Of a DNA stretch of 64,000 nt, positions 31,873-48,434 are shown one piece after another. The notes under the pieces were generated by a model. It was given only the letters and a program-made list of their open reading frames with translations. It was not told the origin of the DNA and did not search any database. The stretch lies in NCBI RefSeq assembly GCF_024296685.1, contig NZ_CP100763.1, forward strand, positions 1,736,001 through 1,800,000. Reading direction: 5' to 3'. Position 1 is the first letter of the stretch. Every line of letters begins with the position of its first letter. The DNA comes from Natrinema marinum. GTDB taxonomy: Archaea > Halobacteriota > Halobacteria > Halobacteriales > Natrialbaceae. Made by a program: the position numbers and the translations under genes.

Positions 31873-34104
31873 TTACTGGAAGCCGATCCGGCTGCCGCGG
31901 CGACCGGTCGGGTCGGGGCCGCCCGCGGAGCCGCCCTGGAACTCCTCTTCGATCTGCTCGTAGTAGTCCAAGATGTCGTCGGTGATCGTCGGCCGGACGT
32001 TCTCCATGGCCTGCCGGAAGTGGCGCATCTCGACGACATCGGCCTCCTCGTCCTCGCGCAGCGCCTCGATGGCCGCCTCGCGGGCGATCGACTCGAGGTC
32101 GCTGCCGACGTAGCCGTCCGTGATCTCGGCGATCTCGCGGAGGGTGACGTCCGCGGCCAGCGGCGTGTCCTGCGTGTGGATCTCGAGGATCCGTTCGCGA
32201 CCGTCGACATCGGGCTCGCCGATCATGACCAGCCGGTCGAACCGACCGGAGCGCAACAATGCGGGGTCGATCATGTCCGGCCGGTTGGTCGCGCCGATGA
32301 CCATCACGTTGCCCATCTCCTCGAGCCCGTCGAGTTCGGTCAGGAGCTGGTTGACGACCCGCTCGGAGACGTTCGAGCCGGTTTCACCGCCTCGTCCCGG
32401 CGCGAGCGCGTCGAGCTCGTCGAAGAAGATGACCGTCGGGGAGACCTGACGGGCCTTGCGGAAGGTCTGGCGGATGGCCTTCTCGGACTCGCCGACCCAC
32501 TTCGAGAGCAGTTGCGGGCCGCGCACCGAGATGAAGTTCGCGTTCGTCTCGTTGGCGACGGCCTTCGCCATCAGGGTCTTCCCGGTGCCCGGCGGCCCGT
32601 ACAGCAAGACGCCGGCCGGCGGATCGATCCCCAGCCGTTCGAAGCGCTCTGGGGTCGAAAGCGGCCACTCGACGGACTCTTGGACCTGGTCTTTGGCGTC
32701 GTGGAGGCCGCCAACGTCGTCCCAGGAGATCTTCGGGAGTTCGACGAGGACCTCCCGCATCGCCGAGGGCTCGACCTCGTTCAGCGCGCCGCGGAAGTCC
32801 TCGCGCTTGACGATCATCCGGTCGATCAGACTCGGCGGGATGTCCTCCTCGTCGAGATCGATCTCGGGGAGGTACCGCCGGAGCGCCTTCATCGCGGCCT
32901 CCTTGGTGAGGCTCTCGATGTCGGCCCCGACGAAGCCGTGGGTCTCGTCGGCCAGGTGACCGAGGCTCACGTCGTCGGACAGCGGCATTCCGCGGGTGTG
33001 GATCTGGAGTATCTCCTCGCGGCCCGTCTCGTCGGGGACGCCGATCTCGATCTCGCGGTCGAAGCGACCGGGGCGGCGCAGGGCGGGGTCGACGCTGTCG
33101 ACGCGGTTGGTCGCCGCGATGACGATGACCTGCCCGCGGGACTCGAGGCCGTCCATCATCGTCAGCAACTGGGCGACGACGCGGCGCTCGACCTCACCGG
33201 TCACGTCTTCGCGTTTGGGCGCGATGGAGTCGAGTTCGTCGATGAAGATGATCGAGGGCGACTCCTCGGTGGCGTCCTCGAAGATCTCCCTGAGCTGCTG
33301 TTCGGACTCGCCGTAGTACTTCGAGATGATCTCCGGGCCGGCGATAGAGAAGAAACTAGCGGAGGTTTCGTTGGCGACTGCCTTCGCGAGTAGCGTCTTC
33401 CCGGTGCCCGGCGGGCCGTGGAGCAAGACGCCCTGGGGCGGCTCGATGCCGAGCTTCTTGAAGATCTGCGGGTGTTTCATCGGCAGTTCGACCATTTCGC
33501 GGACCCGCTGGATCTCGTTTTGCAGGCCGCCGATGTCCTCGTAGGTTATCCCGCCCCCGGTCTTCTCGAAGCCCGAGATGGGTTCCTCGCGGAGTTCGAC
33601 ATCGGTGTCCTCGGTGATGAGGACCACCCCTTCGGGTTCGGTCTCGACGGCGATCAGCGGGATCGCCTGCCCCGGCGAGCGCATGAACGGATGGTTCGTC
33701 GAACTCATCACCGGGACGATGTCGCGGCCGACGACCGGCCGTTTCAGGATCTGTCGTTTCACCATGCCGGCGGCGTCGGAGCCGAACTGGACCGACGCTT
33801 CCTCCGGCGGCGCGAGGGTGAGTTTGTCGGCTTTCGTCGCTTCGGCCTTGCGGATCGTCACCCGCTCGCCGATACCGACATCGGCGTTCTGGCGGGTGAA
33901 CCCGTCGATGCGGACGGTGTCGGTGTTCCAGTCTTGCCGATCTGCGCGCCAGACCTTCGCTGCGGTAGTGTCTGCGCCCTCGATTTCGATGATGTCGCCC
34001 GGACTGAGCTTCAGATGCAGCAATGTGTCCGGGTCGAGTCGGGCGATACCACGACCCGAGTCGTTCGGGTACGCCTTGGCAACCTCCAGTTGGACTTCAT
34101 TCAT
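31873..34104 (-). CDS. cdc48: Cdc48-family AAA+ ATPase (canonical)
   Basis: 743 residues: N-domain starting [19 protein letters not shown], second subdomain, then two AAA modules with GPPGTGKT near 229 and 502 and Walker B IFIDELDS / [27 protein letters not shown] is the typical linker of archaeal Cdc48a. The C-terminus runs through a Gly-rich stretch to SRIGFQ, an aromatic penultimate residue resembling the proteasome-docking HbYX tail of AAA partners. Energy-dependent unfoldase of the cytoplasm. The convergent neighbour is a paralog; the two stops are 77 bases apart. Confidence 0.96.
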
Positions 34105-34314
34105 GATTTAGGGATGGACGGCGATGTCAATGTCTCCGATTCGTGAGCGGATATGTTTTGTGTTAGCCCACATTTCTGTGCTAGTCGATACCATAGATAC
34201 TTAAGTCGGGACGCTACAAAGATGTACCGGACTCGGAGGGTTTTAGCCCTATCGACACCCCCTCGAGCGACCAAGAGGGGAGGGTTTTTGCGGCTTCCAC
34301 GCACCAGGGTAGGT

Positions 34315-35640
34315 ATGCGAATCCTGGCCTTCGACGGCCGGATGGGTGCCAGCGGCGACATGCTCCTCGCCGCCCTCATCGATGCCGGCGCCGATCCCGA
34401 CGTTCTCGAGCCAATCACGGACGCCCTCGACCTCGAGTATCGGATCGACGACGCCGAAAAGTGCGGGATCGCCGCGACGGCGGTCGACGTGTTCCTCTCG
34501 GAGGGCCACTCGGCCGACGGTGAACGCGATCACGGGACCGACGAGTCCGGCGACGGCGGGCACGGCCACCATCACGATGAGGACGACCACGCGAGCGGGC
34601 ACGGCCACGGCGGGCACGATCACGACGATGGCGTCCGCGCCGAGGGCCACGGGCCACACCGCAGTTACGTCGAGGTCCGCGAAATCGTCGCAGAGTTGGA
34701 CCTCGAGCCGGCGGTCGAACGCGACGCGCTCGCAATCTTCGAACTGCTCGGCGAGGCGGAAGCCAGCGTCCACGGCGAGGCCCTCGAGGACATCCACTTC
34801 CACGAGGTCGGGGCCGACGACGCGATCGCGGACGTGGTCGGCGCGGCGGCGCTGGTACACGACCTCGAGCCGGATCGGATCGTCACGACGCCGCTGGCGA
34901 CCGGCGGCGGGACGGTGTCGATGAGCCACGGCGAGTACCCCGTCCCGACGCCGGCGGTCGTCGAGATCGCCCAGCGAGCCGACTGGTCACTGCGCGGCGG
35001 GCCGGTCGACGCCGAACTGCTGACGCCCACGGGCGCGGCGATCCTCGGCCACCTCGCCGACGGCGTCGACTCGCTGCCCGCGCTCGACATCGAAGCGTCA
35101 GGTTATGGCGCCGGCAGCTACGACCTCGATCCCCATCCGAACGTGCTTCGCGCGCTCGTCGGAACCGGCGACGGGCGACTGGTGAAAGACGATATCGCGG
35201 TGCTCGAGACCAATCTAGACGACGCGACGCCCGAGGTACTGGGCGGGCTACAGGAGTCGCTCTCGCGTGCGGGCGCGAGAGACGTGTCGATCCTCCCCGC
35301 AACGATGAAGAAGTCCCGGCCCGGCCACCTCGTGAAGATCATCTGCAAGCCCGCGGACCGGGAACGCGTCGCTCGAGCGCTGGCCGAGGAGACCGGGACT
35401 CTCGGCGTTCGCGATGCCGGTGTGACCCATCGGTGGATCGCCAAGCGGGAGTTCGAGACGGTGACGCTCGAGGTAGACGGCGCGGAGTACGACGTCACGG
35501 TCAAAGTCGCAAGCGATGCGGACGGCGAGGTCTACGACGTGAGCGCGGAGTACGACGACGCGGCGGCGGTCGCCCGCGAGAGCGGGCTCGCGATTCGAGA
35601 GATCGTCCGACGTGCCGAGCAGACGCTGGCGGACGAGTAA
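34315..35640 (+). CDS. larC: nickel-pincer cofactor synthase LarC
   Basis: 441 residues. MRILAFDGRMGASGDMLLAAL is the conserved start. A His/Asp/Gly-rich loop (about 65-120) is the variable nickel-binding region, followed by DIHFHEVGADDAIADVVGA, TPLATGGGTVSMSHGEYPVP, LTPTGAAIL, ETNLDDATPEVL and KKSRPGHLVKIICKP. LarC puts nickel into the pyridinium cofactor used by lactate racemase and related racemases/epimerases. larB, larE and a LarA-type enzyme are not in the window. The ATG at 34315 was chosen; 54 open codons upstream lie in the promoter region shared with cdc48. Confidence 0.93.
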   Translation: MRILAFDGRMGASGDMLLAALIDAGADPDVLEPITDALDLEYRIDDAEKCGIAATAVDVFLSEGHSADGERDHGTDESGDGGHGHHHDEDDHASGHGHGGHDHDDGVRAEGHGPHRSYVEVREIVAELDLEPAVERDALAIFELLGEAEASVHGEALEDIHFHEVGADDAIADVVGAAALVHDLEPDRIVTTPLATGGGTVSMSHGEYPVPTPAVVEIAQRADWSLRGGPVDAELLTPTGAAILGHLADGVDSLPALDIEASGYGAGSYDLDPHPNVLRALVGTGDGRLVKDDIAVLETNLDDATPEVLGGLQESLSRAGARDVSILPATMKKSRPGHLVKIICKPADRERVARALAEETGTLGVRDAGVTHRWIAKREFETVTLEVDGAEYDVTVKVASDADGEVYDVSAEYDDAAAVARESGLAIREIVRRAEQTLADE

Positions 35641-35827: not shown

Positions 35828-36154
35828 CTAGAAGAGGTCAAGGAGGTCCTCGAAGGCGACACCGCCATCACCGCCGTCGGCATCACCGCCATCGCCGCCG
35901 ACACCGACGCCGACGCCGGCGCCGCCGTCACCGCCGTCTCCGCCGCTCTGGTCGTTAATGATCGGGATCAGTGAGTCGCCACCGTCTCCGCCGTCTCCGC
36001 CGTCTCCGCCGACGCCGACGCCGATACCGTCACCGCCGCTGGCATCAGCGTCTCCTCCCGAAGCGTCCTGTTGTGCCGCTACTGCGCCTGCCGCCATGGT
36101 CAGCATACCCACAGCCATCGCGAGTGTGAGCATGACCGTGATCGTTCGTTTCAT
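35828..36154 (-). CDS. secreted Gly/Asp-rich mini-protein A
   Basis: 108 residues. A Sec signal peptide (MKRTITVMLTLAMAVGML then AAGAVAA) is followed by a mature part of about 80 residues made almost only of Gly, Asp, Val, Ile and Ala: DASGGDADASGGDGIGVGVG, repeated GGD triplets, a hydrophobic SLIPIIND hinge, a second SGGDGGDGGAGVGVGVGG block, and a FEDLLDLF end. The layout block-hinge-block is shared with mini-protein B at 36785-37177. GGD triplets recall Ca-binding RTX or polyglycine-II structures; alternating I/V-G recalls beta-strands. No family recognised. Its place between larC and the QN-repeat gene suggests a surface-matrix role, which is inference. Confidence 0.72.
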   Translation of the reverse strand: MKRTITVMLTLAMAVGMLTMAAGAVAAQQDASGGDADASGGDGIGVGVGGDGGDGGDGGDSLIPIINDQSGGDGGDGGAGVGVGVGGDGGDADGGDGGVAFEDLLDLF

Positions 36155-36784: not shown

Positions 36785-37177
36785 TTAGACGGCGATGTTC
36801 TGCTGGTCAGTGTTGGTAGTGGCGAACGCGTATCCGCCGTCACCGCCGACAGCGACACCGCCATCTCCACCGACGCCGACCCCGATTCCGTCGCCACCGT
36901 TGCCGCCGTCACCGCCGCTATTGTCCGAGAATAGGCTCAAGAGAGTGTCACCACCGTCGCCGCCGTCGCCGCCGTCGCCGCCGACGCCGATGCCGACACC
37001 GTCACCGCCGCTGGCGTCAGCATCGCCGCCGGATGCATCAGCTATAGTGATGGTCTGAGCGGAATTAGTCTGAGTGACGCTGCTACTGCTCGTTGCTGCC
37101 GCGGCTCCCGCACCCATTGTGAGCATCAGGCCGAGAGCCAGTGCGACCGTAATCGTGGATCGGATTGTTCGCTTCAT
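36785..37177 (-). CDS. secreted Gly/Asp-rich mini-protein B
   Basis: 130 residues starting MKRTIRSTITVALALGLM; the signal peptide ends near AAAA. A Ser/Thr/Gln segment (SSSSVTQTNSAQTITI) precedes the same block-hinge-block layout as mini-protein A: DASGGDADASGGDGVGIGVG, GGD triplets, hinge TLLSLFSDNS, then GGDGIGVGVGGDGG and a C-terminal end with YAFATTNTDQQNIAV. The 20-odd residues after DASGGD differ from A mainly by I/V swaps, so the two are paralogs. The start at 37177 was chosen because it begins the signal peptide. Divergent from the QN-repeat gene. Confidence 0.72.
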   Translation of the reverse strand: MKRTIRSTITVALALGLMLTMGAGAAAATSSSSVTQTNSAQTITIADASGGDADASGGDGVGIGVGGDGGDGGDGGDTLLSLFSDNSGGDGGNGGDGIGVGVGGDGGVAVGGDGGYAFATTNTDQQNIAV

Positions 37178-37856
37178 AGTTGATCTCGCGGTTGGGCATA
37201 CACGCGCGGACCACCGGAACCGCTTCGTCGCATCGGCCGATCGCACGATCCTTCGCGACTCGTCCGACCGATCCGAGCGGATGCCACGGCGCGTTGCCCA
37301 GATGGCCCTGTCGGTAATCTGTTGTATTAAACCGAACCACGGTTTCGAGAGCTATTCTCGGTTTGAATCGGAATAGAGCGCCTCAAAAGCGTTTAGGGCT
37401 GCTCTTTGAGCGATATTGTTCATATTTCTCACAAGAATTGGTTATGCATGATACATGAAACGGACATAAGACGCAGATTGATCGTCCTACTACCTCTACG
37501 CTGTCTGCGAAATAGCTCCCCTACGACCTCCGTTCACTCACAGTTGTCATTATACAGTCTATTTCTCCACAGATTGCATCTCACAGACGGTCATTAAAGC
37601 GAGTGGGAAATACATTCTTCCCTACTAGGTGCGGGTCAATCGACGAAATACGGCTGAAACTATCCGTAAACCGTCCGCTTCACTCGTCGGTCCGCTCACC
37701 ACTGTTAATTCCCTCCCTTCCGCGACGGTAGCAGACCCCTTCTTCTGTACAAAGCGTTGATAACAAAGACTGTATCCGAGATAGGATGGTTCGCGTCGCA
37801 GAGAATCAGCAAGAAAGACCGTCACAAGTCATTCGACACGGACCACGACCTACAAA
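37178..37856. other. long divergent intergenic region, mini-protein B / QN-repeat gene
   Basis: About 680 bases, AT-richer than average, holding the candidate promoter of mini-protein B (37324-37337) and a weak TTAATT (37705-37710) about 150 bases before the QN-repeat start. Short frames here are Arg/Ser-rich and not convincing. Long regulatory upstream regions fit surface genes under control, but no operator is identified. Confidence 0.5.
37324..37337 (-). promoter_or_regulatory. candidate promoter of mini-protein B
   Basis: Minus strand GTTCGGTTTAATAC has a good TATA core (TTTAATA) about 150 bases before the start, predicting a leader of about 125 bases, like csg and mini-protein A. Confidence 0.5.
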
Positions 37857-39419
37857 ATGCTCGAACGATCACAGATTACGACGATTTTCGTCGCCGTTAT
37901 GCTCACCGTCTCCATGGTGGGGATGGTCGGCCCAGTGGCCGCCGGCGGCGACCGAGACGTACAGGATAGACCAGTATACACGCTTCAGAACGGCGAGGAC
38001 CTCTACTTGGTGTTCGGCGCCGACCTCAGCACACAGAGTCTGGAGGACTTCATCGATTCGCACGCGGCGACCGGTTCGACGAATGCCGAAGAGCAGGAGG
38101 CGATCGCCGATGTCATCACGTACCAGAATGTTAACCAGGTAAACATCCACGAACAGGGTGCCGCTGTCTCCATCGCGATGGATAACGGAACGGCGACGGC
38201 CGTTCAGGACGTCGATCAACAGAACATGAACATCCAGCAGGGTGAGGCCTCCGCCGAGAATCGGATGTCCGACTCCAGAACGACGGATTTCGAAAACGTC
38301 GGTGACGTCCATCTCGTCATGGCGAACAGCAGCGGCGGTGGTCAGCAGTTCAGCGGCTGGGGAATCGCCGACGAAGAGGACGAGCCTAGAGCTACCCAGA
38401 CGGCGACTGCAGCGGTAGCTCAGGCTCAGAACGTCGCCCAACTCAATTATAACAAGGAGAGCACCGCCTTTGCACTCGCGGTGAACGACAGTCGAGCGAC
38501 CGCCTTCCAGCAGACAACACAGGCCAACCAGAACCTACAGCAAGGCACCGCCAACGCGTCAAACGTCTATCTCGGAGACGGGAAATTCGGCGAATACGAC
38601 GACCACAAGAAGGGCAAAAAGGGCGACACGCAGGACGCGTCCGCCTTCGTTGCCCAAGGCCAGAACGTCAGTCAGAACAACGTCAACGAGGGAGTCGCCG
38701 CCGTCGCGATCGCCATCGGCGAGAACAGCACCGCGACGGCAGTCCAGCTCACGGATCAGAGTAACCTGAACCAGCAACTCGGGAGTGCGAAAGCGACGAA
38801 CGTCATCTCGTCGATGGCAGGCATGAACGTCGCCAACATCGGCGAAAGTGATATCGTCGGCACTGACAAGCCGAAGACAAGCACCGACGAGACCCCGAAG
38901 AAAGGCGAAGAAGGAGACGGTGAGCAAACCGCGACCGCCGTCGTCGCACAGGGACAGGCCGTCGAACAGTTGAACGTCAATCTGAACAACACTGCGATGG
39001 CCATCGCGATCAACGGCAGCGAATCGACCGCCTTCCAGATCGCTGACCAGAAGAATTACAACGCTCAGGTCGGGTACGCCGAAGCGCTCAACGTCTACGC
39101 CAGTCCGGGCTACGTCACCGACAGCACCACGCAGACGAAGAGTACGACAGTGACTGTCGGCGGAAACGACGTGCAGAGTGATCCAGGAATCTCGTACGAC
39201 TACGACACTAGCGCTCACCACAAGAACGACATCAGTCAAGGGGCGACCGTTGCGATCGAGCAACAGCAGTTCGTCACCCAACAGAACCTCAACCAGCACT
39301 CAGCCGTGGCAGTCGCCGAAGGTAACGGTAACGCGAACGCGGCACAGGTGAGTCTGCAGGAGAACGAGAACGTCCAGTTCACGTCGGTCGCTGCGACGAG
39401 CGCCTGGGTCGGCGCGTAA
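37857..39419 (+). CDS. secreted Gln/Asn-rich repeat protein, curlin/amyloid-like
   Basis: 520 residues. Signal peptide at 1-29 (hydrophobic 8-27, cut near PVAA). The mature protein holds five repeats of about 54 residues at 82-135, 183-235, 261-315, 359-412 and 462-515. Each follows the same ladder: A-x-VAQxQxVxQxNxN, a central AxAIA strand with a turn, then TAxQxxxQxNxNxQ and GxAxAxN. Regularly spaced Q and N with alternating small hydrophobics is the pattern of curlin repeats and other beta-solenoid or amyloid-forming proteins. Spacers of 26-50 residues between repeats are charged (Lys/Asp/Glu-rich) and unalike. No anchor or Cys. It faces the Gly/Asp-rich mini-proteins divergently and precedes a glycan operon. 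Matrix fibre is inference; no chaperone or CsgG-like exporter was found. Confidence 0.75.
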   Translation: MLERSQITTIFVAVMLTVSMVGMVGPVAAGGDRDVQDRPVYTLQNGEDLYLVFGADLSTQSLEDFIDSHAATGSTNAEEQEAIADVITYQNVNQVNIHEQGAAVSIAMDNGTATAVQDVDQQNMNIQQGEASAENRMSDSRTTDFENVGDVHLVMANSSGGGQQFSGWGIADEEDEPRATQTATAAVAQAQNVAQLNYNKESTAFALAVNDSRATAFQQTTQANQNLQQGTANASNVYLGDGKFGEYDDHKKGKKGDTQDASAFVAQGQNVSQNNVNEGVAAVAIAIGENSTATAVQLTDQSNLNQQLGSAKATNVISSMAGMNVANIGESDIVGTDKPKTSTDETPKKGEEGDGEQTATAVVAQGQAVEQLNVNLNNTAMAIAINGSESTAFQIADQKNYNAQVGYAEALNVYASPGYVTDSTTQTKSTTVTVGGNDVQSDPGISYDYDTSAHHKNDISQGATVAIEQQQFVTQQNLNQHSAVAVAEGNGNANAAQVSLQENENVQFTSVAATSAWVGA

Positions 39420-39932
39420 TCGATTCGGTCACACGATCGGCTTTCGATCGGTGTGACGGCCAATTCCGTTTCTTTCGATTTCGGCTCCGAATCGCTTCGT
39501 CAGTGCGACATACCGGCGACGTTCCGTCGGTCGGGTTCGGTCTCGTTCGACCGATCTGTGTCTCGCGTAGAAGGACCGATTCCGAAACGCGGTGCAGTTT
39601 CTGTTTACTCCCCCGTGGGACGACAGAATGCCATCCAATAGTAAATCAAGAGACGGTTTTGCCGCCGACCGAGCGTTCCAGCGAAGACACGGCCAACGCC
39701 ATGTTCTGCAGATACGAGTGACGGACTCACCCGCCTTGTTTCGGGGACGAAACACAATCTTGCCACCCTACGGTCCACGTGTTTCACCATTGGAAATTCT
39801 CGAAGGTCATTCAAATTTCTAACGCACGCTCCCTAAGAACAGCGATTTCACCGTTTGTCCCTACGTCGATTTACCACCTGTAACGATCTCTCCGGTTTTA
39901 GAAACACAACGGTCCATGACGGCGCAGACACA
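39420..39932 (+). other. intergenic region before the glycan operon
   Basis: About 510 bases. Several overlapping short frames on both strands lack coding character. The end carries a TATA-like GTTTTAGAAA (39894-39903) about 35 bases before the operon's first ATG, its probable promoter. Confidence 0.55.
39894..39903 (+). promoter_or_regulatory. candidate promoter of the glycan operon
   Basis: GTTTTAGAAA centred 35 bases before the ATG at 39933 gives a leader of about 8 bases. All eight following genes overlap or nearly touch, so this may drive the whole unit to 48434. Confidence 0.4.
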
Positions 39933-40502
39933 ATGAGCGATGGGAACTACCAGAAACCGGGGGCGGGGACAGTCGGATACGCATACGACGACGAGAGTCG
40001 GAAGCCCGTGATCGGATCGGACCCGACTATCAGATCGGGAACGATCATCTACGACGACGTCGTCATCGGCGACCGCTTCAGCACTGGCCACTTCGCGCTG
40101 GTTCGCGAGCGAACCGAGATCGGCGACGACGCGCTGGTCGGAACGAACGTGACCATCGACGGCGAAACGACGATCGGCTCGAACGCGAGTTTTCAAACGG
40201 GTGCGTACGTACCTGCGAAGACCGCAATCGGCGACCACGTCTTTCTCGGACCGCACGCGACGCTGACCAACGACCCATATCCCCTGCGCCAGAAGACCGA
40301 ACTCGAGGGACCGACGCTCGAGGATCACGCCTCGGTCGGCGCGAACGCGACGGTCCTTCCGGGCGTGACCGTCGGCCGGGGATCGTTCGTCGCCGCTGGG
40401 GCCGTCGTAACGAGGGACGTTCCCGAGGAGACGCTGGCGGTCGGCGCACCGGCGACCTACGAGGCGCTTCCGGAACCGCTCCGCGGAGGGAACGACGGAT
40501 GA
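39933..40502 (+). CDS. hexapeptide-repeat N-acetyltransferase, WbpD-like
   Basis: 189 residues forming a left-handed beta-helix: [80 protein letters not shown], then [30 protein letters not shown] matches the acceptor/CoA site of acetyltransferases acting on UDP-3-amino uronates (WbpD, WlbB). Next to an aminotransferase and oxidoreductase of the same route, it should acetylate the 3-amino group. First gene of the operon, 4-base overlap with the next. The ATG at 39933 is preferred to that at 39855, which precedes the promoter. Confidence 0.88.
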
Positions 40503-41572
40503 TCCCGATCGCGAGTCCCGAACTCGGCAAGCGGGAGGTCGACCGCGTTTCGTCCGTCATCGAGAGCGGTATGCTCGCCGACGGCGACGAGGTCCGAGCG
40601 TTCGAACGGGAGTTCGCCGACTACTGCGGCGTCGAACGCGGCGTCGCGACGGCGAACGGCACGGCGGCGCTCCACGCCGCGCTCGAGGCCGTCGGTATCG
40701 GAGCCGGTGACCGCGTCCTCACGACGCCGTTCTCGTTCGTCGCGACGGCGAACGCGATTAGACACGCCGGAGCAGAACCACTCTTTGCTGACATCGACCC
40801 GATCACGTACAACTTAGATCCGGGCGCCGCCCGCGAGATTGCTGAGTCGAAGGCTATCGATGCGATACTCGTCGTCCACCTCTACGGCCTTCCGGCCGAG
40901 ATGGACGCGTTCGTGGACCTCGCAGACGATCTCGAGGTGCCGCTGATCGAAGACTGTGCGCAGGCCCACGGCGCGACCTATCGAGGCGACCGGGTCGGGT
41001 CGTTCGGGGACGCCGCCTGCTTCTCGTTTTATCCGACGAAGAACATGACGACCGGGGAAGGCGGTATCGTCCTGACCGACCGCCGCGAGGTCGCAGACCG
41101 CGCCGGGCAGTACGTCGACCACGGCCGCACGGACGACGGCACGCACGCGACCCTTGGTCACAACTTCCGGCTGACCAACCTTGCGGCCGCCATCGGCCGC
41201 GCCCAGCTCGAGCGTCTCCCGCGGTTCGTCGAGCGGCGACGGGAGAACGCCACTCGCCTGAGCGACGGTCTCGCCGGAACGGACCTGTCGCCGCCGACGG
41301 AGCCGAGTCACGCCCGGCACGTCTACCACCAGTACACGGTTCGATCCCCCGACCGCCGGGCCCTCCGCGACCACCTTGCGGCCCACGACATCGGGGCGGG
41401 CGTCTACTACTCGACGCCCATTCACGAGGAACCGGCGTACGGCGACGTGAGCCACGACGCGCCCGCGGCGGAACGGGCCGCGGCGGAGGTACTGTCCCTC
41501 CCGGTCCATCCGAACGTCTCTCCAGACGAGATCGACCGCATCACGGAGGTGATCGCCGACTATGCAGCCTGA
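40499..41572 (+). CDS. DegT/DnrJ/EryC1 aminotransferase, WbpE-like
   Basis: 357 residues, fold type I PLP enzyme. [20 protein letters not shown] is the standard start; [12 protein letters not shown] binds the PLP phosphate; EDCAQAHGA carries the ring-contacting Asp; [14 protein letters not shown] holds Lys181, the PLP Schiff-base residue. It should transfer an amino group from glutamate to the 3-keto-uronate nucleotide made by the next enzyme. Overlaps upstream by 4 and downstream by 11 bases. Confidence 0.92.
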
Positions 41573-42551
41573 ACGGCCGCTCGAGGTCGGGGTCGTCGGC
41601 GTCGGATCGATGGGGGAAAACCACGCGCGCGTCTACGAGGGACTCCCCGGTGCGGACCTGATCGGCGTCTTCGACGTCGACGAGGACCGGGCGACAGCCG
41701 TCGCGGACGAGTACGGCGCGTCACCGATGGCACTCGACGACCTCCTCGCGTCCGTCGACGCCGTTTCGGTCGTCGTCCCGACCGCACACCACTACGACGT
41801 CGCGACGAAGTGCCTCGACGCGGGAGTGGCGACGCTCATCGAGAAGCCCGTCGTCGAGGACCTCGAGACGGGGCGGAAGCTGCGGGCGAAGGCGCACGAC
41901 GCAGACGTGCCGGTACAGGTCGGCCACATCGAGCGGTTCAACCCCGCCGTCGAGACACTCAGCGAGCTGATCTCCGACCTCTCGATCGTCAGCCTCTCGG
42001 CCGAACGGCTCGGCCCGCCGCCGGGACGGGAGATCGAGGACAGCGCGGTGTTGGATCTGATGATTCACGACATCGATGTCGTGCGCTCGCTCCTCGGGGA
42101 GGAGCCGACCGCGATACAGAGCAGCGGCGTTGCCGACAACCGCCACGCGACGACCCTCCTCGAGTTCGGTACCGGGACGATGGCGTCGCTGACGGCGAGT
42201 CGCCTCACCCAGCGGAAAGTCCGGCGGCTCGAAGTGACGGCCGAGGAGTGTCTCGTCGAGCTCGACTACATCGATCAATCGATCGAGATCCACCGCCAAT
42301 CGGTCCCCCAATACGTCGAAACCAACGGCGACATCCGCTTCAGACACGAGAGCCTCGTCGAACGGCCCCGCGTTCCGACCGGGGAGCCGCTTCGCAACGA
42401 ACTGGCGGCGTTTCTCGACGCGGCCGCCTCGAACGGAACGCCGCGAGTGACGCTCGAGGACGGCCTCGCAGCCCTCGACATCGCACGACGGATCGAGCGC
42501 CAGGGCTCGAGGGATCGAGTCGCGGCGGATGCGGAGGCGGCAAATGACTGA
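41562..42551 (+). CDS. Gfo/Idh/MocA oxidoreductase, WbpB-like
   Basis: 329 residues. The NAD-binding start VGVVGVGSMGENHARVYEGL is followed by the EKPVV motif (TLIEKPVVEDLE) and HIERFNPAVETL, with DLMIHDIDVVRSLLG the catalytic helix. Family members oxidise the 3-OH of sugars; beside a WbpE/WbpD pair and a UDP-sugar dehydrogenase it should make the 3-keto derivative of UDP-N-acetylglucosaminuronate. Overlaps both neighbours (11 and 8 bases). Confidence 0.9.
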   Translation: MQPERPLEVGVVGVGSMGENHARVYEGLPGADLIGVFDVDEDRATAVADEYGASPMALDDLLASVDAVSVVVPTAHHYDVATKCLDAGVATLIEKPVVEDLETGRKLRAKAHDADVPVQVGHIERFNPAVETLSELISDLSIVSLSAERLGPPPGREIEDSAVLDLMIHDIDVVRSLLGEEPTAIQSSGVADNRHATTLLEFGTGTMASLTASRLTQRKVRRLEVTAEECLVELDYIDQSIEIHRQSVPQYVETNGDIRFRHESLVERPRVPTGEPLRNELAAFLDAAASNGTPRVTLEDGLAALDIARRIERQGSRDRVAADAEAAND

Positions 42552-43959
42552 GCAACGCCACCGCTCCGAACGCGACGCGGCGGACCTGTACGGCGCTGGG
42601 GAATCCAGTCGTCGACAGCGAGAGGCGTTCGTGGCCGGCTCGGTCCCGGTCGCCGTCTACGGCCTCGGCAAGATGGGGCTGCCCCTGGCGGCGGTGTTCG
42701 CGGAGACGACGGGTAACGTCCTCGGTGCCGATATCGACCCTGATGTCGTCGAGGCGATAAACGGCGGCGACTGCCACGTCAAGCGAGAACCGGGACTCCC
42801 GTCGCTCGTCGCCGAAACCGTCGCCGACGGTGCGCTGGCCGCGACGACGAACCCCCGAGAAGCCGCCGGGCGAGCGTCGGTTCACGTCGTCATCGTCCCG
42901 ACGCCGATCACCGACGCGAACGAACCCGACCTCTCGATCCTTGACGCGGTCGTCGAGTCGATCGGTTCCGGCCTCGAGCGGGGCGATCTCGTCCTCGTCG
43001 AGTGTACCGTCCCGCCGCGGACGACGACCGACCGAGTGTTGCCCGCCCTCGAGGCCGCGTCGGGGCTCTCGCGCGGCGAATTCGGCGTCGCGTTCTGTCC
43101 CGAGCGGACCTCGAGCGGCCGGGCGCTCGAAGACATTCGCGGCGCGTATCCCAAAGTGGTCGGCGGCGTCGACGCGGAGAGCACCCGCGCGGCCACGCTG
43201 GTGTACGAGGCGATCAACGACGAGGGCGTCATCGCCGTCTCGGACGCGACGACGGCGGAAGCCGTCAAGGTCTTCGAGGGGCTGTACCGCGACGTCAACA
43301 TCGCGCTCGCCAACGAACTCGCGACGTTCACGGACGAGTTCGGGATCGACGTCCGGGAAGCGATCGGCGTCGCCAACACGCAGCCCTACTGCGACATCCA
43401 CGACCCGGGACCCGGCGTCGGCGGACACTGCATCCCCTTCTACCCGTACTTCGTGATCGACCCGTTTGAAACGGACGCGCCGCTGTTGCGGACCGCTCGA
43501 GCGGTCAACGACGCGATGCCGTCGTACGCGGTGGATAAACTCCGCGAAGAGTTCGCTGCGGAGCGAACTGAACTGGCCCACAGTACGGTCTTGTTACTCG
43601 GACTTACGTATCGGCCCGGCGTCGAGGAGATTCGGGCCTCGCCGTCGCTGTCGATCGCCGAGGAGCTCACCGCGGCCGGTGCAGATGTCTACGGCGTCGA
43701 CCCGGTGCTCGAGTCGTATGCCGCGTTCGAGGACCGAGGCCTGACGCCGATCGAACTCGAAGCACTGTACGACGGAGCGTTTGACGGAATCGTCCTCGTG
43801 ACGCCCCACGAAGAGTTCGAGTCGGTTCGCTGGCAGGACGTGGAACCGGCTGACGGCGATCTGATCGTTCTTGATGCCAGGGACGCGTTGGATCGCGAGC
43901 GGCTACCCGAGGACCACCGCGTCTACACCCTCGGAACCGGGGGTGATGGAAGTGTATAG
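42544..43959 (+). CDS. nucleotide-sugar dehydrogenase, UDP-GlcNAc(ManNAc) 6-dehydrogenase type (WbpA-like)
   Basis: 471 residues. After a 30-residue charged start come the Rossmann motif VYGLGKMGLPLAAVFA (from 38), TPITDANEPDLS, ECTVPPRTT, CPERTSSGRALEDI, the mid-domain TTAEAVKVFEG with its catalytic Lys, and GPGVGGHCIPFYPY with nucleophile Cys296; the C-terminal domain is GLTYRPGVEEIRASPSL. The EC-type motifs are those of the UDP-N-acetyl-hexosamine 6-dehydrogenase group (WbpA/WecC), which oxidise C6 twice to the uronate with NAD+. The start at 42544 overlaps wbpB-like by 8 bases. Confidence 0.92.
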   Translation: MTEQRHRSERDAADLYGAGESSRRQREAFVAGSVPVAVYGLGKMGLPLAAVFAETTGNVLGADIDPDVVEAINGGDCHVKREPGLPSLVAETVADGALAATTNPREAAGRASVHVVIVPTPITDANEPDLSILDAVVESIGSGLERGDLVLVECTVPPRTTTDRVLPALEAASGLSRGEFGVAFCPERTSSGRALEDIRGAYPKVVGGVDAESTRAATLVYEAINDEGVIAVSDATTAEAVKVFEGLYRDVNIALANELATFTDEFGIDVREAIGVANTQPYCDIHDPGPGVGGHCIPFYPYFVIDPFETDAPLLRTARAVNDAMPSYAVDKLREEFAAERTELAHSTVLLLGLTYRPGVEEIRASPSLSIAEELTAAGADVYGVDPVLESYAAFEDRGLTPIELEALYDGAFDGIVLVTPHEEFESVRWQDVEPADGDLIVLDARDALDRERLPEDHRVYTLGTGGDGSV

Positions 43960-44983
43960 GGACCGAACGGTCGGCGTCGTCGTGCCGTCGTACAACGAGG
44001 AAGAATTCGTTGGGAACGTGATCGACACGGTCCCCTCGTACGTCGATCGGATATACGCCATCGACGACTGCTCAAACGACGACACGTGGACGGAGATCCG
44101 ACGGCACGCCGCAAAGATGAACGGGTGTGCGTCTGTTGCCAGCGCAGACGGACATGCGCCGGTGTCAAAGGCCGAAACTGACGCGGGATTCGATCGCCGC
44201 GTCGTCCCGATACGCCACGAGGAGAACCGCGGCGTCGGCGGCGTCATAAAGACCGGGTATCTGCGCGCCCGCGAGGACGAACTCGACATCACAGCCGTTC
44301 TGGCCGGAGATGGGCAGATGGATCCCCGGCACCTCCCACGATTGCTCGATCCGATCGTCGATGGCGCTGCCGACTACACGAAAGGGAACCGGCTGATCGC
44401 CAAGGAATACCGCACAGACATGCCCCGCTTCCGACTGTACGGGAACGCGATTCTGACGCACCTGACGCGGATTTCCTCTGGGTACTGGAAGGTGATGGAC
44501 CCACAAAACGGGTACACCGCGATCTCACTCGGGGCTCTCGAGCGTCTCCCGATCGAGGATCTGTACGAATATTACGGCTATCCGAACGATCTGCTGGTAA
44601 AGTTAAACGCCGACGAAATGCGCGTTGCTGACGTCCCAATGCCCGCCGTCTACGGCGACGAGGAGTCTACCATCCGCTATCCATCGTACGTTCGAAAGGT
44701 CTCGGTGCTCCTGGCTCGGAACTTCCTCTGGCGCGTATCGGTACGATACGTCGAACGCGACTTCAACCCAAAAGAACCGCTCTATACCGCCGCGTTCATC
44801 GCCGCGGCAATCGGAACCCTCGGCGGATTGCGAACGCTACTTTCGGAGCATCGACCCCAGAAGAAGCGCGTTCTACTGGCCGTCTCGAGTTGTATTCTGT
44901 TCGTCGGCGTTCTCGTTCCGTCGATAGGGGACCTTCTCAAGGCGGACGGAGAGTGGGACACCGGGGTGCGGATCTATGACTAG
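43946..44983 (+). CDS. family 2 glycosyltransferase with C-terminal membrane helices
   Basis: 345 residues. VGVVVPSYNEEEFVGNVIDT starts the GT-A fold; IDDCSNDDTW is the nucleotide-binding acidic patch; VLAGDGQMDPRHLPRLL contains the DGQMDP motif of the DPM1/ArnC-like branch; two hydrophobic helices follow near 275-295 and 308-325. These enzymes usually place a sugar onto a polyprenyl phosphate at the inner face of the membrane, here plausibly the diacetamido uronate. The start at 43946 was chosen over 43871 because the core begins there; it overlaps the dehydrogenase by 14 bases. Confidence 0.88.
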   Translation: MEVYRDRTVGVVVPSYNEEEFVGNVIDTVPSYVDRIYAIDDCSNDDTWTEIRRHAAKMNGCASVASADGHAPVSKAETDAGFDRRVVPIRHEENRGVGGVIKTGYLRAREDELDITAVLAGDGQMDPRHLPRLLDPIVDGAADYTKGNRLIAKEYRTDMPRFRLYGNAILTHLTRISSGYWKVMDPQNGYTAISLGALERLPIEDLYEYYGYPNDLLVKLNADEMRVADVPMPAVYGDEESTIRYPSYVRKVSVLLARNFLWRVSVRYVERDFNPKEPLYTAAFIAAAIGTLGGLRTLLSEHRPQKKRVLLAVSSCILFVGVLVPSIGDLLKADGEWDTGVRIYD

Positions 44984-45758
44984 GGATTTCACGTTCGAGA
45001 TGTACGAGAACCTGCTCCAGAGCGGTCTCGAATCCGGCTACGACCATCTCACTGTTCGAGAGTTTCTCTCTCGAAGCAGGGTGCCAGAACGGTTCATCAT
45101 TCACAGACACGACGTGGATCGAAAACCGGAAAATGCACTCGCAATGGCACGACTCGAGGCGGAGTACGGGGTCTCGAGTACGTATTACGTCAGGACCATT
45201 GAGAAGACCTTCGATCCCGACCTGATCCGCGAAATCGAGGCTCTCGGTCACGAGATCGGCTACCACTACGAGGACATGGACAGAAGCGCAGGCGATCTCG
45301 ATCGCGCCCACGAGTCGTTCGCAACGAACCTCGAGAGAGTTCGACAGTACGCGACGGTCGACACGGTCTGTATGCACGGAAATCCACTCACGACGTACGA
45401 CAATCGGGAGATGTGGCGCGACGGGGACGAAACCCCGACGCTCGAGATGTACGACCTCCTCGGGGAAGCATACCTCTCTCTGGACTTCGAGACGGTGGTC
45501 TATTTTTCCGATACCGGTCGGACGTGGCGGGATGGTGCGATGAAGATAAAGGATCATACGATCGGCCCGGATTCGAAATCGATCCAGATCGAGACAACCC
45601 CCGATTTGATACGCCGTCTGGAAGCGTGCTCGCTTCCTGCCTGCTGTGTCCTCACCCATCCCAATCGCTGGGCGCGGACCACGACGGAACACGTCGTCGA
45701 AACGGCGAAGGATTCGGTAGTCAACCTCGGAAAACTCGGACTCAATATGGTACGATAA
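44976..45758 (+). CDS. polysaccharide deacetylase-like protein (NodB fold)
   Basis: 260 residues. FIIHRHDVDRKPENALAMA holds the Asp-Asp-type metal site start (HDVD), and LGHEIGYHYEDMD the HxxxH-like second part; HGNPLTTYD and VLTHPNRWAR complete the barrel. Cytoplasmic by lack of a signal peptide, so it may act on lipid-linked intermediates before export. No classical NodB serine/aspartate signature beyond these, so the reaction is inferred. Overlaps the GT2 gene by 8 bases and is 1 base from the next. Confidence 0.82.
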   Translation: MTRDFTFEMYENLLQSGLESGYDHLTVREFLSRSRVPERFIIHRHDVDRKPENALAMARLEAEYGVSSTYYVRTIEKTFDPDLIREIEALGHEIGYHYEDMDRSAGDLDRAHESFATNLERVRQYATVDTVCMHGNPLTTYDNREMWRDGDETPTLEMYDLLGEAYLSLDFETVVYFSDTGRTWRDGAMKIKDHTIGPDSKSIQIETTPDLIRRLEACSLPACCVLTHPNRWARTTTEHVVETAKDSVVNLGKLGLNMVR

Positions 45759-45759
45759 C

Positions 45760-47319
45760 ATGACAATGCTAGCAATCGGACTGGACGGTGCGAACTGGAA
45801 TCTCGTTGATAAATGGATCGCCGACGGAAAGCTACCGAACCTCAGGCGGTTAAAAGAGAACGGTATCGGCGGAACGTCGAAGAGTTGCTTGCCCCCGTTG
45901 ACGGTGCCCAACTGGAAGTGTTATTCGACCGGAAAGAATCCAGGAAACTTCGGCGTCTTCCGATTCGACAGGATTGACACGGAGTCGCGTTCGCACACGT
46001 TCCACGACTATTCCGACTTCGACAGTCCAGAACTGTGGGACTACCTCAACGCCGACGGGTTGACGACCGGGATCATCAACAAGCCGTCGACTTATCCCCC
46101 GAAGGCTGTCGACGGGTTCATGGTGTCCGGCGGCCCGGACGCGTCCGATTCGGAGTATCGGTCGCTCGAGTCCGGATTCACGTATCCATCCGCACTGGGC
46201 GACGAGTTGCAAGCGGCATTCGACTACGATGTTCATCCGACACCGATGATATCCCCGTCTGAGACCGGCGACCGAGAGGTGGAGGCGATACTGGATCTGA
46301 TTGAGACGCGGTTCCAAGTTGCGAGGTACCTGCTCGATCGCGAAGCTCCCGACTTTCTTCACCTAACTATCTTCTATAATATGGCCCTCCAGCATTACTT
46401 CTGGCGAGAGGAACCGGTTCTTCGTGCCTGGAAGGTTATCGACGAGAACCTCGCCGGGTTTATCGACGACGGTCACGACCTCGTCATCTTCTCCGACCAC
46501 GGAACGTGTCGTGTCGACGTTACGTTCTACATCAACGTCTGGCTCGAGGAGAACGGCTATCTGACGACCGAGCAGACCGTCGATCGGCGGTTACGGTCTC
46601 TCGGATTTACCCGCGAACGGGCGCTTCGGATCGCCAAACGTCTAGGAATGGTCGACGTTCTCAGCAAGACGGTGCCCGAACGAATCCAGAAGGTCCTCCC
46701 CTGGGAGGAGGGGCTCAAACGTGACAGAGTGCTCTCGGCGGTCGACTGGGACGAAACGTCGGTCCTCGCCAGCAATCAGGGTCCGGTCTACCTGACTCTC
46801 GATCGTGACGATGCCGAGTACGAGCCCCTTCGAACCGAACTGATCGAACGGTTGCAAGCCCTCTCGCATCCCGAAACCGGGGCGCACATCGTCGATGCCG
46901 TCCATCGAGGGGAGGAATTATACTCGGGACCGTACGCCGGGGCCTCCCCGGATCTCGTCATCGAACAGGGCGACAACGTACACACGAGCGATGCGATCGG
47001 TCCGAATTCGTGGTGGGCGAACACTGGTGTCTGGCAGGGAGGCAACACGCGAAACGGCTTGTTCCTGTTTCACGGTCCGAGCTTCCGCCAAGGGGCGACC
47101 GACGCCGATGCCGAGATCGTCGATATCGCACCGACGATTCTCCACTCGATGAACGTTCCCGTGCCTGATGATATGGATGGGACCGTTCTGGACGTCTTCG
47201 AAGACGATGCCGACAACGCTGTCACATATCGGACGCCGCTTTCCACCCCCAACAGCGCTGCCAGAACCGAGAGTGAATCGGTCGAACAACGGTTGGCCGA
47301 CCTGGGATACCTCGAGTGA
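45760..47319 (+). CDS. alkaline-phosphatase-superfamily enzyme (phosphodiesterase/transferase type)
   Basis: 519 residues. The metal sites typical of the superfamily show as AIGLDGANW (D9), LPPLTVPNWKCYSTGKNPG with Thr48 as likely nucleophile, FSDHGT near 245 and the late GLFLFHGP region, with PTILHSMNVPVPDDMDG at the end. Members include type I phosphodiesterases and phosphoglycerol/phosphoethanolamine transferases. In a glycan operon it may act on a nucleotide-sugar, lipid-pyrophosphate or phosphate decoration; no membrane helix or signal is present, so a cytoplasmic site is expected. Start either 45760 or 45766. Its stop overlaps the next start (GTGA). Confidence 0.85.
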   Translation: MTMLAIGLDGANWNLVDKWIADGKLPNLRRLKENGIGGTSKSCLPPLTVPNWKCYSTGKNPGNFGVFRFDRIDTESRSHTFHDYSDFDSPELWDYLNADGLTTGIINKPSTYPPKAVDGFMVSGGPDASDSEYRSLESGFTYPSALGDELQAAFDYDVHPTPMISPSETGDREVEAILDLIETRFQVARYLLDREAPDFLHLTIFYNMALQHYFWREEPVLRAWKVIDENLAGFIDDGHDLVIFSDHGTCRVDVTFYINVWLEENGYLTTEQTVDRRLRSLGFTRERALRIAKRLGMVDVLSKTVPERIQKVLPWEEGLKRDRVLSAVDWDETSVLASNQGPVYLTLDRDDAEYEPLRTELIERLQALSHPETGAHIVDAVHRGEELYSGPYAGASPDLVIEQGDNVHTSDAIGPNSWWANTGVWQGGNTRNGLFLFHGPSFRQGATDADAEIVDIAPTILHSMNVPVPDDMDGTVLDVFEDDADNAVTYRTPLSTPNSAARTESESVEQRLADLGYLE

Positions 47320-48434
47320 TCATGCGGGTCCTCTTCGACATCACTCATCCGGCACACGTGCACCTGTTCAAGAACGCGATTCGGGAACTCTGGGACTCCG
47401 GCCACCACGTCCTCGTCACGGCGAGGGGAAAGGACATCACGGTACCGCTGCTCGAGTCCTACGGGATCCCACACGTCGTCCTCTCGTCTAAATCGAGCGG
47501 GATCGTCGGGACGGTCAGTGAATGGCTGCTCCGAGAGGTCCGACTGGCACGAATCGCGACCGAGTTCGACCCCGACGTTATCGTCAGTCGGTTCAACCCT
47601 GCTGGCGCACACGCGTCGAAGGTCGTCGGGTGTCCGTTCCTGATGCTAGACGATACGGAGAACGAATCGTCGCTCATCAAAAATCTCACCTATCCGCTCG
47701 CGGACGCCGTCTTCACGCCGTCGTGTTTCGAACTCGAGCTGGGCGACAATCAGATCAGATACGACGGATACCACGAACTGGCGTATCTGCATCCCGACCG
47801 GTTTACACCCGACGAAGCGGCGTTGCGGGACCACGATATCGATCCCGACGGAGAGTACTACGTTATCCGATTGACCGCCTGGGACGCGTTCCACGACTAC
47901 GGCGCCTCCGGCGTGTCACAGCAGACCCTATCCGAGATCGTTTCGCTACTGAGCGATCGCGGAAGCGTATACATAACGAGCGAAGGATCTGTGCCGTCGG
48001 CGCTGGCGGACTACGGACTCGAGATCCCGCCATGCCGAATCCACGATCTACTAGCTTTTGCCAATGGATATATCGGAGATTCGGGAACGATGGCGACTGA
48101 AGCGGCGATCCTTGGAACGCCGGCGATCCGGATCGATCCGCTCGCGGGACGCCACACCGGCGGGAATTTCGTCGAACTAGAGGAGCGGTACGGCCTCCTC
48201 CGTTCGACACCGCATGAACGTGAGGCAGTCCGCGAACTGAGAGCGCAAGTCTCCGATCCGCGGACAGCAGAAAAGCATCGTGAGGGCGTGAAGAGACTGC
48301 TCGACGATAAGATAGATGTCACCGCCTTTCTCCTGGATCGAATACGTTCCGTCACGAACGACAGCGATCCGAAACGGACACAACGGAATTTCAGCCAGGG
48401 GGAAGCGACCAAACCCAGAACGACACCGGACTGA
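47316..48434 (+). CDS. DUF354 family protein (GT-B fold, glycosyltransferase/epimerase-like)
   Basis: 372 residues. MRVLFDITHPAHVHLFKNAI is the standard DUF354 start; GIPHVVLSSKSSG, FLMLDDTEN, FTPSCFELELG and YHELAYLHP are typical, and GYIGDSGTMATEAAILGTPAIR is the sugar-nucleotide-binding loop shared with MurG and UDP-GlcNAc 2-epimerases. Function within archaea is untested: either a glycosyltransferase or the C2 epimerase that would turn the diacetamido-gluco uronate into the manno form. GTG at 47316 overlaps the upstream stop; ATG at 47322 is the alternative. Last gene of the operon. Confidence 0.87.
   Translation: MIMRVLFDITHPAHVHLFKNAIRELWDSGHHVLVTARGKDITVPLLESYGIPHVVLSSKSSGIVGTVSEWLLREVRLARIATEFDPDVIVSRFNPAGAHASKVVGCPFLMLDDTENESSLIKNLTYPLADAVFTPSCFELELGDNQIRYDGYHELAYLHPDRFTPDEAALRDHDIDPDGEYYVIRLTAWDAFHDYGASGVSQQTLSEIVSLLSDRGSVYITSEGSVPSALADYGLEIPPCRIHDLLAFANGYIGDSGTMATEAAILGTPAIRIDPLAGRHTGGNFVELEERYGLLRSTPHEREAVRELRAQVSDPRTAEKHREGVKRLLDDKIDVTAFLLDRIRSVTNDSDPKRTQRNFSQGEATKPRTTPD

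Follow-up and report, generated by a model that had tools for sequence, protein, structure and literature searches.

The gene at 37857 to 39419 in the 64,000-nucleotide stretch of the Natrinema marinum genome analyzed here (the window) encodes a secreted protein with five Gln/Asn/Ala ladder repeats. Its product is probably, at a likelihood of roughly 0.6, secreted to take part in an extracellular cross-beta fibre, either as a subunit or as the nucleator at the surface. The ladder proteins are best read as a new family and as a candidate amyloid-type fibre. Apart from the PGF-CTERM anchor, no Pfam or NCBIfam model matched the window protein or 31 homologs above cut-off, and in plasmid records the relatives carry no annotation beyond 'hypothetical protein' or 'PGF-CTERM sorting domain-containing protein'. 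The features of the locus are given in Table 1.

Table 1. Features of the ladder locus, in window coordinates
Feature	Position	Strand	Basis or remark
Second small secreted Gly/Asp-rich protein, 108 aa	35828..36154	-	Paralog of 36785..37177
Small secreted Gly/Asp-rich protein, 130 aa, ATG at 37177	36785..37177	-	Sits where relatives encode the small ladder partner
Divergent intergenic region, 679 bp	37178..37856	.	Similar length in most relatives
Leader motif GATAACAAAGNNTGTANNCGNGATAGGA (GATAACAAAG-type), ~70 bp before the ladder ATG	37759..37786	+	Conserved
Five-repeat ladder protein, 520 aa, secreted	37857..39419	+	31-homolog alignment and repeat profile
Signal peptide (Sec-type), residues 1-29	37857..37943	+	Read by eye; kept across homologs
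Conserved N-terminal segment, residues 41-70, LxNGEDLYLVFGADL..SLEEYI	37977..38066	+	
Ladder repeat 1, residues 82-136	38100..38264	+	Repeat profile E 7.2e-20; model strands 79-99, 102-107, 112-137
Ladder repeat 2, residues 181-237	38397..38567	+	Repeat profile E 1.7e-18; model strands 180-200, 203-209, 213-239
Ladder repeat 3, residues 259-316	38631..38804	+	Repeat profile E 9.7e-20; model strands 258-278, 281-287, 292-318
Ladder repeat 4, residues 357-413	38925..39095	+	Repeat profile E 4.8e-21; model strands 356-384, 389-415
Ladder repeat 5, residues 461-516	39237..39404	+	Repeat profile E 1.5e-15; model strands 460-487, 493-518

Five repeats with one conserved face

The first-pass annotation had described an open reading frame with a signal peptide and five repeats. 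The frame indeed encodes 520 residues and begins with a Sec-type signal, recognized by eye from its hydrophobic core and the VAA-GG at its end, and the repeat boundaries proposed there agree to within 1-2 residues with those defined by the profile. The ladder motif had been assigned to every repeat. Its occurrence is far above chance, with Q-x3-Q-x-N-x-N-x-Q found 5 times against 0.004 expected (0 of 20,000 composition-preserving shuffles reach 5) and Q-x-Q-x3-Q-x-N found 4 times against 0.05 expected from shuffles, but the first two ladder positions are missing from repeat 1. The repeats are rich in Ala, Gln and Asn, and acidic residues make up 7.6% of them versus 19.7% of the spacers; N-glycosylation sequons are not enriched in the window protein (8 versus 7.2 in shuffles). 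The further claim that the spacers are dissimilar while the ladders are conserved holds within one protein but not fully across orthologs, which have in common a linker 1 motif, F-x-x-V-G-x-V...F-x-G-W.

The ladder pattern is kept in homologs, where the first-pass annotation had suggested looking for it, both in an alignment of 31 sequences that share 37-81% identity with the window protein and in a profile search of the order. The alignment contains 66 invariant columns, all uncharged and mostly at the Q/N/A positions of the ladder. Each repeat comprises a strand A of 17 residues and a strand C of 23 residues in which every second residue is near-fixed. In each of the five repeats, mean entropy is 0.27-0.74 bits for these in-face residues and 1.3-2.3 bits for the out-face residues between them. 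Across the family, the fixed face consists of Gln (28%), Ala (27%), Asn (22%) and Val (9%), the first three together accounting for 76%, with ~1% charged residues; the alternate face is mixed and includes 15.5% Glu and 7% Asp. As judged from the sequences, this alternation marks the segments as extended strands that bury one polar face.

The number of repeats is constant. Exactly five, each of 55-58 residues, are present in 66 of 66 distinct full-length relatives, all haloarchaeal proteins of a single order (a set selected by having five profile matches), joined by linkers 1 to 4 of 38-48, 5-35, 30-78 and 32-63 residues. When all frames were scanned, the open frames held five profile matches (91 frames), one (11) or two (1), and never three, four or six. 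The window protein ends four residues past repeat 5, with no C-terminal cap. At the other end, the conserved segment of residues 41-70 was searched for in 146 genomes, and all of its matches fell inside open frames of ~500 aa or more that have the size and place of a ladder protein; this segment has low pLDDT in the window-protein model and is possibly an N-terminal cap.

Divergent small proteins and locus layout

At Sec-type loci, counted where at least ~1.4 kb of upstream sequence was available, a small secreted protein of 110-260 aa is encoded divergently upstream of the ladder gene in one to four copies, and by the filters used it is missing in four (L017, L027, L036 and L039) of ~40 such loci. 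The start-to-start distance between the first small partner and the ladder gene is mostly 609-709 bp, with outliers from 908 bp. Candidates were first chosen by position and by loose Q/N or GGDG motifs, a filter that is partly motif-based, and were then scored against separate strand-A and strand-C profiles, with the 1% shuffle threshold as cut-off. The strand-A profile scored 42 of 48 small proteins above this threshold and the strand-C profile 25 of 48. Both strand orders, A-C and C-A, were found, a circular permutation of the kind that stacked one-layer units would tolerate. Of the contextual evidence, these divergent small ladder proteins in the relatives, absent from the first-pass annotation, speak most strongly for an assembly system.

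In the window itself, this place is occupied by a Gly/Asp-rich protein whose start lies 680 bp from that of the ladder gene, but its ladder is degenerate and its profile score is within shuffle noise. A search of the genome with the small protein returned its paralog at 35828..36154 as the only other copy (E 6.2e-20), and the N-terminus of this paralog, MKRTITVMLT, also occurs in the small proteins of locus L035. The tandem minus-strand pair carries GGDGGDGGD and GVGIGVGGDGG blocks and gave nothing above cut-off against Pfam. In the L035 small proteins, GGDGGDGGD blocks are found together with ladder strands. The window pair is linked to the small-partner family by its place and size, by a signal peptide in common and by L035. 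In the intergenic region, the leader motif is kept in 12 genus-level loci and has one perfect copy in the genome, with none for the reversed control.

Two further observations concern variants of this layout. The small proteins L042 10253-11071, L041 1478-2269 and L086 9713-10789 have a globular-looking segment (VEFY...RFRW...) beside or between their ladder strands, as if displayed from the layer edge; that of L042 had no NCBIfam match. A second five-repeat subfamily (L037, L040, L080, L081, L083, L085, L087, L089 and L091) has a Tat-like RR signal and frequently a Lys-rich tail, and a divergent small partner was found in 0 of the 7 Tat-type loci with enough flank.

Predicted fold, known amyloids and competing readings

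Two AlphaFold2 models were generated from alignments of 11 sequences each, the first for the window protein with 10 orthologs and the second for a trimmed Natrarchaeobius ortholog that shares 54% identity with the window protein in the modelled region. Model 1 shows long strands in each repeat, with pLDDT mostly 70-90, linkers below 50 and a pTM of 0.53; model 2 has the same layout at somewhat lower confidence and a pTM of 0.58. In both, the repeats reach a pLDDT of ~60-90 and the linkers are disordered, and the whole-chain mean pLDDT is just 52-56. Where beta-arch rungs had been suggested earlier for the repeats, both models predict beta layers. The window protein is predicted to be a beta-solenoid of five stacked layers, a stacking deduced from structural matches spanning all five repeats rather than from coordinates.

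Foldseek searches of the PDB gave no significant match for either model (E of at least 0.5), which is not proof of a new fold. Among the non-significant matches, the curli subunit CsgA (8c50) came first for model 1 (E 0.5), followed almost only by beta-helices, and the top five for model 2 included FapC twice and CsgA. VIA-align superimposed the models on CsgA 8c50 with Z values of 6.2 and 7.1 (models 1 and 2; rmsd over 8 A) and model 2 on SufB with 8.2 (150 residues, 3.2 A), SufB/SufD giving the highest Z, but the tool itself classes values of this size as common, and they therefore mean stacked parallel beta layers, not kinship.

In the proposed assembly, each 55-58-residue repeat would form one flat beta layer with the Gln/Asn/Ala ladder as its inward face, and the five layers of one chain would stack into an open beta-solenoid with the linkers looping out at the edge. 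Because repeat 5 has nothing after it, the C-terminal side would be open, and further layers could be added to the uncapped last one. The divergent small proteins of the relatives, with their ladder strands, would supply these layers, attachment to the cell envelope would come from the PGF-CTERM anchors that some relatives have, and a possible cap at the other end, formed by the N-terminal segment, would limit growth to one side. Such a fibre might act in a biofilm or matrix, with the five-repeat protein as its major subunit or its nucleator. A fuller version, a two-subunit haloarchaeal fibre system in which divergently encoded one-layer small proteins (strands in either order, in some cases separated by an inserted globular segment) polymerize on a five-layer nucleator or anchor, an independent FapC/curli-type amyloid in near-saturated salt, is put forward tentatively and at less than even odds. 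Points against the fibre reading include the modest confidence of the models, the lack of a significant Foldseek match, the SufB/SufD match and the possible N-terminal cap. In addition, the window's own small proteins have no recognizable ladder, and the ladder protein is the sole one in its genome.

The closest known layout is that of FapC. In FapC each layer is formed by one imperfect repeat, 94% of the proteins have exactly three repeats, the linkers vary widely, and the core network consists of conserved Asn and Gln (PMC12392863). With FapC/FapB of Pseudomonas (PDB 9u4u, 9nqd) the ladder family shares one repeat per layer (predicted here), repeats of fixed length and near-fixed number (five in 66 of 66, 55-58 aa, with linkers of 5-78 aa), variable disordered linkers that loop outward, Asn/Gln in the core and a partner with related repeats encoded nearby. 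It differs in having five repeats rather than three and another motif, in being archaeal with no outer membrane, and in its short and divergently encoded partners. FapC chains of solved structures were not among the matches of phmmer and profile searches taken to E 10, the sequence search of solved structures gave no meaningful match to the ladder protein, and no fap gene (fapABCDEF) was seen among the neighbour genes read at ladder loci. Since there is no detectable sequence similarity, the likeness to FapC is taken to be convergent.

A fixed number of five repeats would also suit a monomeric, capped beta-solenoid surface protein, such as an adhesin or an S-layer-associated spacer, which does not polymerize and in which the Q/N ladder only stabilizes the fold in high salt. 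The conserved N-terminal segment could be its cap, and some relatives have PGF-CTERM anchors. Moreover, model 2 has its best VIA match in SufB and SufD, which do not polymerize; a solenoid fold by itself does not imply a fibre. However, no sequence follows repeat 5 in the subfamily of the window protein, it is hard to see what the co-encoded small ladder proteins, in either strand order, would do next to a closed monomer, and FapC pairs a fixed repeat number with fibres (94% have three; PMC12392863). This closed form is rather unlikely, if well worth keeping in mind.

The low overall pLDDT and the Q/N/A-rich composition might instead point to a disordered, low-complexity Q/N-rich secreted spacer with no fixed fold, but this is very improbable given 66 invariant columns at identities down to 37%, a strict two-residue periodicity, and repeats that vary neither in number nor appreciably in length. 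That the protein is a beta-helix enzyme acting outside the cell, on carbohydrates or otherwise, is scarcely credible: polysaccharide lyases and a polygalacturonase are among the weak structural neighbours, but no enzyme model of Pfam or NCBIfam matched above cut-off, and there is no sign of a catalytic site because no invariant residue in the 31 homologs is charged.

The curlin likeness raised by the first-pass annotation does not extend to kinship. The curli proteins CsgA/CsgB (PDB 8c50; PMC10192328) resemble the ladder proteins in having a signal peptide and divergent genes. If the predicted fold of the ladder proteins holds, the two would also share stacked beta-arches in which Q/N ladders and small or hydrophobic side chains point inward and the polar outward face is free. 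Curlin repeats of 22-24 aa contain the kernel N-x-Psi-x-Psi-x-Q twice, and their minimal repeat is Q-x-G-x2-N (PMC10192328, PMC3521004). In the window protein the kernel occurs 0 times and the minimal repeat once, versus 0.39 in shuffles, and the ladder repeats are 55-58 residues long and constantly five. PF07012 (Curlin_rpt) had no match in the window protein or the 31 homologs and was absent across 61 genomes (the source and 60 relatives), with a positive E. coli control; CsgG (PF03783) was absent from the source genome and detected in 4 control genomes. Both models have CsgA 8c50 among their weak structural neighbours, and the matches of the curlin model include one unnamed archaeal protein (PMC3521004), but with the PF07012, kernel-motif and CsgG tests all failed, membership was rejected, and a true archaeal curlin homologous to CsgA/CsgB is hardly to be expected here.

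Within the archaea, the sheath proteins MspA/SH of Methanosaeta and Methanospirillum (PMC10593813) are extracellular and have amyloid-like beta-arches, as proposed here. They are set apart on the basis of that description, in which they form the rings of the cell sheath in a different lineage and no Q/N ladder repeats are mentioned.

Distribution, anchoring and genomic neighbourhood

The ladder gene is present in a single copy in the source genome. The protein was found in 29 of 29 sampled genomes of the genus and also occurs in some of the family's other genera, and the repeat profile matched 62 of 293 genomes of the order, in three families, and only 14 of 393 in a sample of the phylum. Carriers include Natrialba, Halobiforma, Halopiger, Natronorubrum, Natrarchaeobius, Natrononativus, Haloterrigena, Haladaptatus and Halomicrococcus. 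As regards a viral origin, IMG/VR contained no relative of the ladder protein.

Biofilms of Haloferax volcanii bind Congo red and thioflavin T, with the gene responsible not established (PMC4180959), and a 2025 review gives as archaeal functional amyloids only MspA and one unconfirmed Haloferax candidate (PMC12520557). The ladder family supplies specific genes that can be tested in haloarchaea amenable to culture (such as Natrialba, Natronorubrum and Haladaptatus). If fibres form, amyloid composed of imperfect repeats around a core of polar ladders would have arisen separately in archaea and could assemble in molar salt, which is of interest for materials.

Seven of the 31 homologs carry a PGF-CTERM anchor, as do archaeosortase-anchored haloarchaeal surface proteins, but the window protein has none at its C-terminus. 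At L031 (10879-11979; also at L032 and L034), a further protein is encoded 2.6 kb upstream of the five-repeat gene. The L031 protein has a haloarchaeal surface-glycoprotein signal, an S-layer-like region and a PGF-CTERM (scored on L031), and in all three loci a short Q/N-ladder-like tail lies just before the anchor.

No dedicated chaperone, exporter or regulator for the ladder protein was found. After the ladder gene, the window contains a run of surface-sugar genes (39855-48434) for a hexapeptide acyltransferase, a DegT aminotransferase, a Gfo/Idh oxidoreductase (nearest to UDP-GlcNAc 3-dehydrogenase), a nucleotide-sugar dehydrogenase, a glycosyltransferase 2, a phosphodiesterase and a DUF354 protein. 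A functional link to this cluster was rejected, since it is not beside the ladder gene in most relatives, and its adjacency is taken to be due to chance. On the other side, a CDC48-family AAA ATPase gene and a LarC-type nickel insertion gene (31873-35640) are syntenic with the ladder locus in many relatives.
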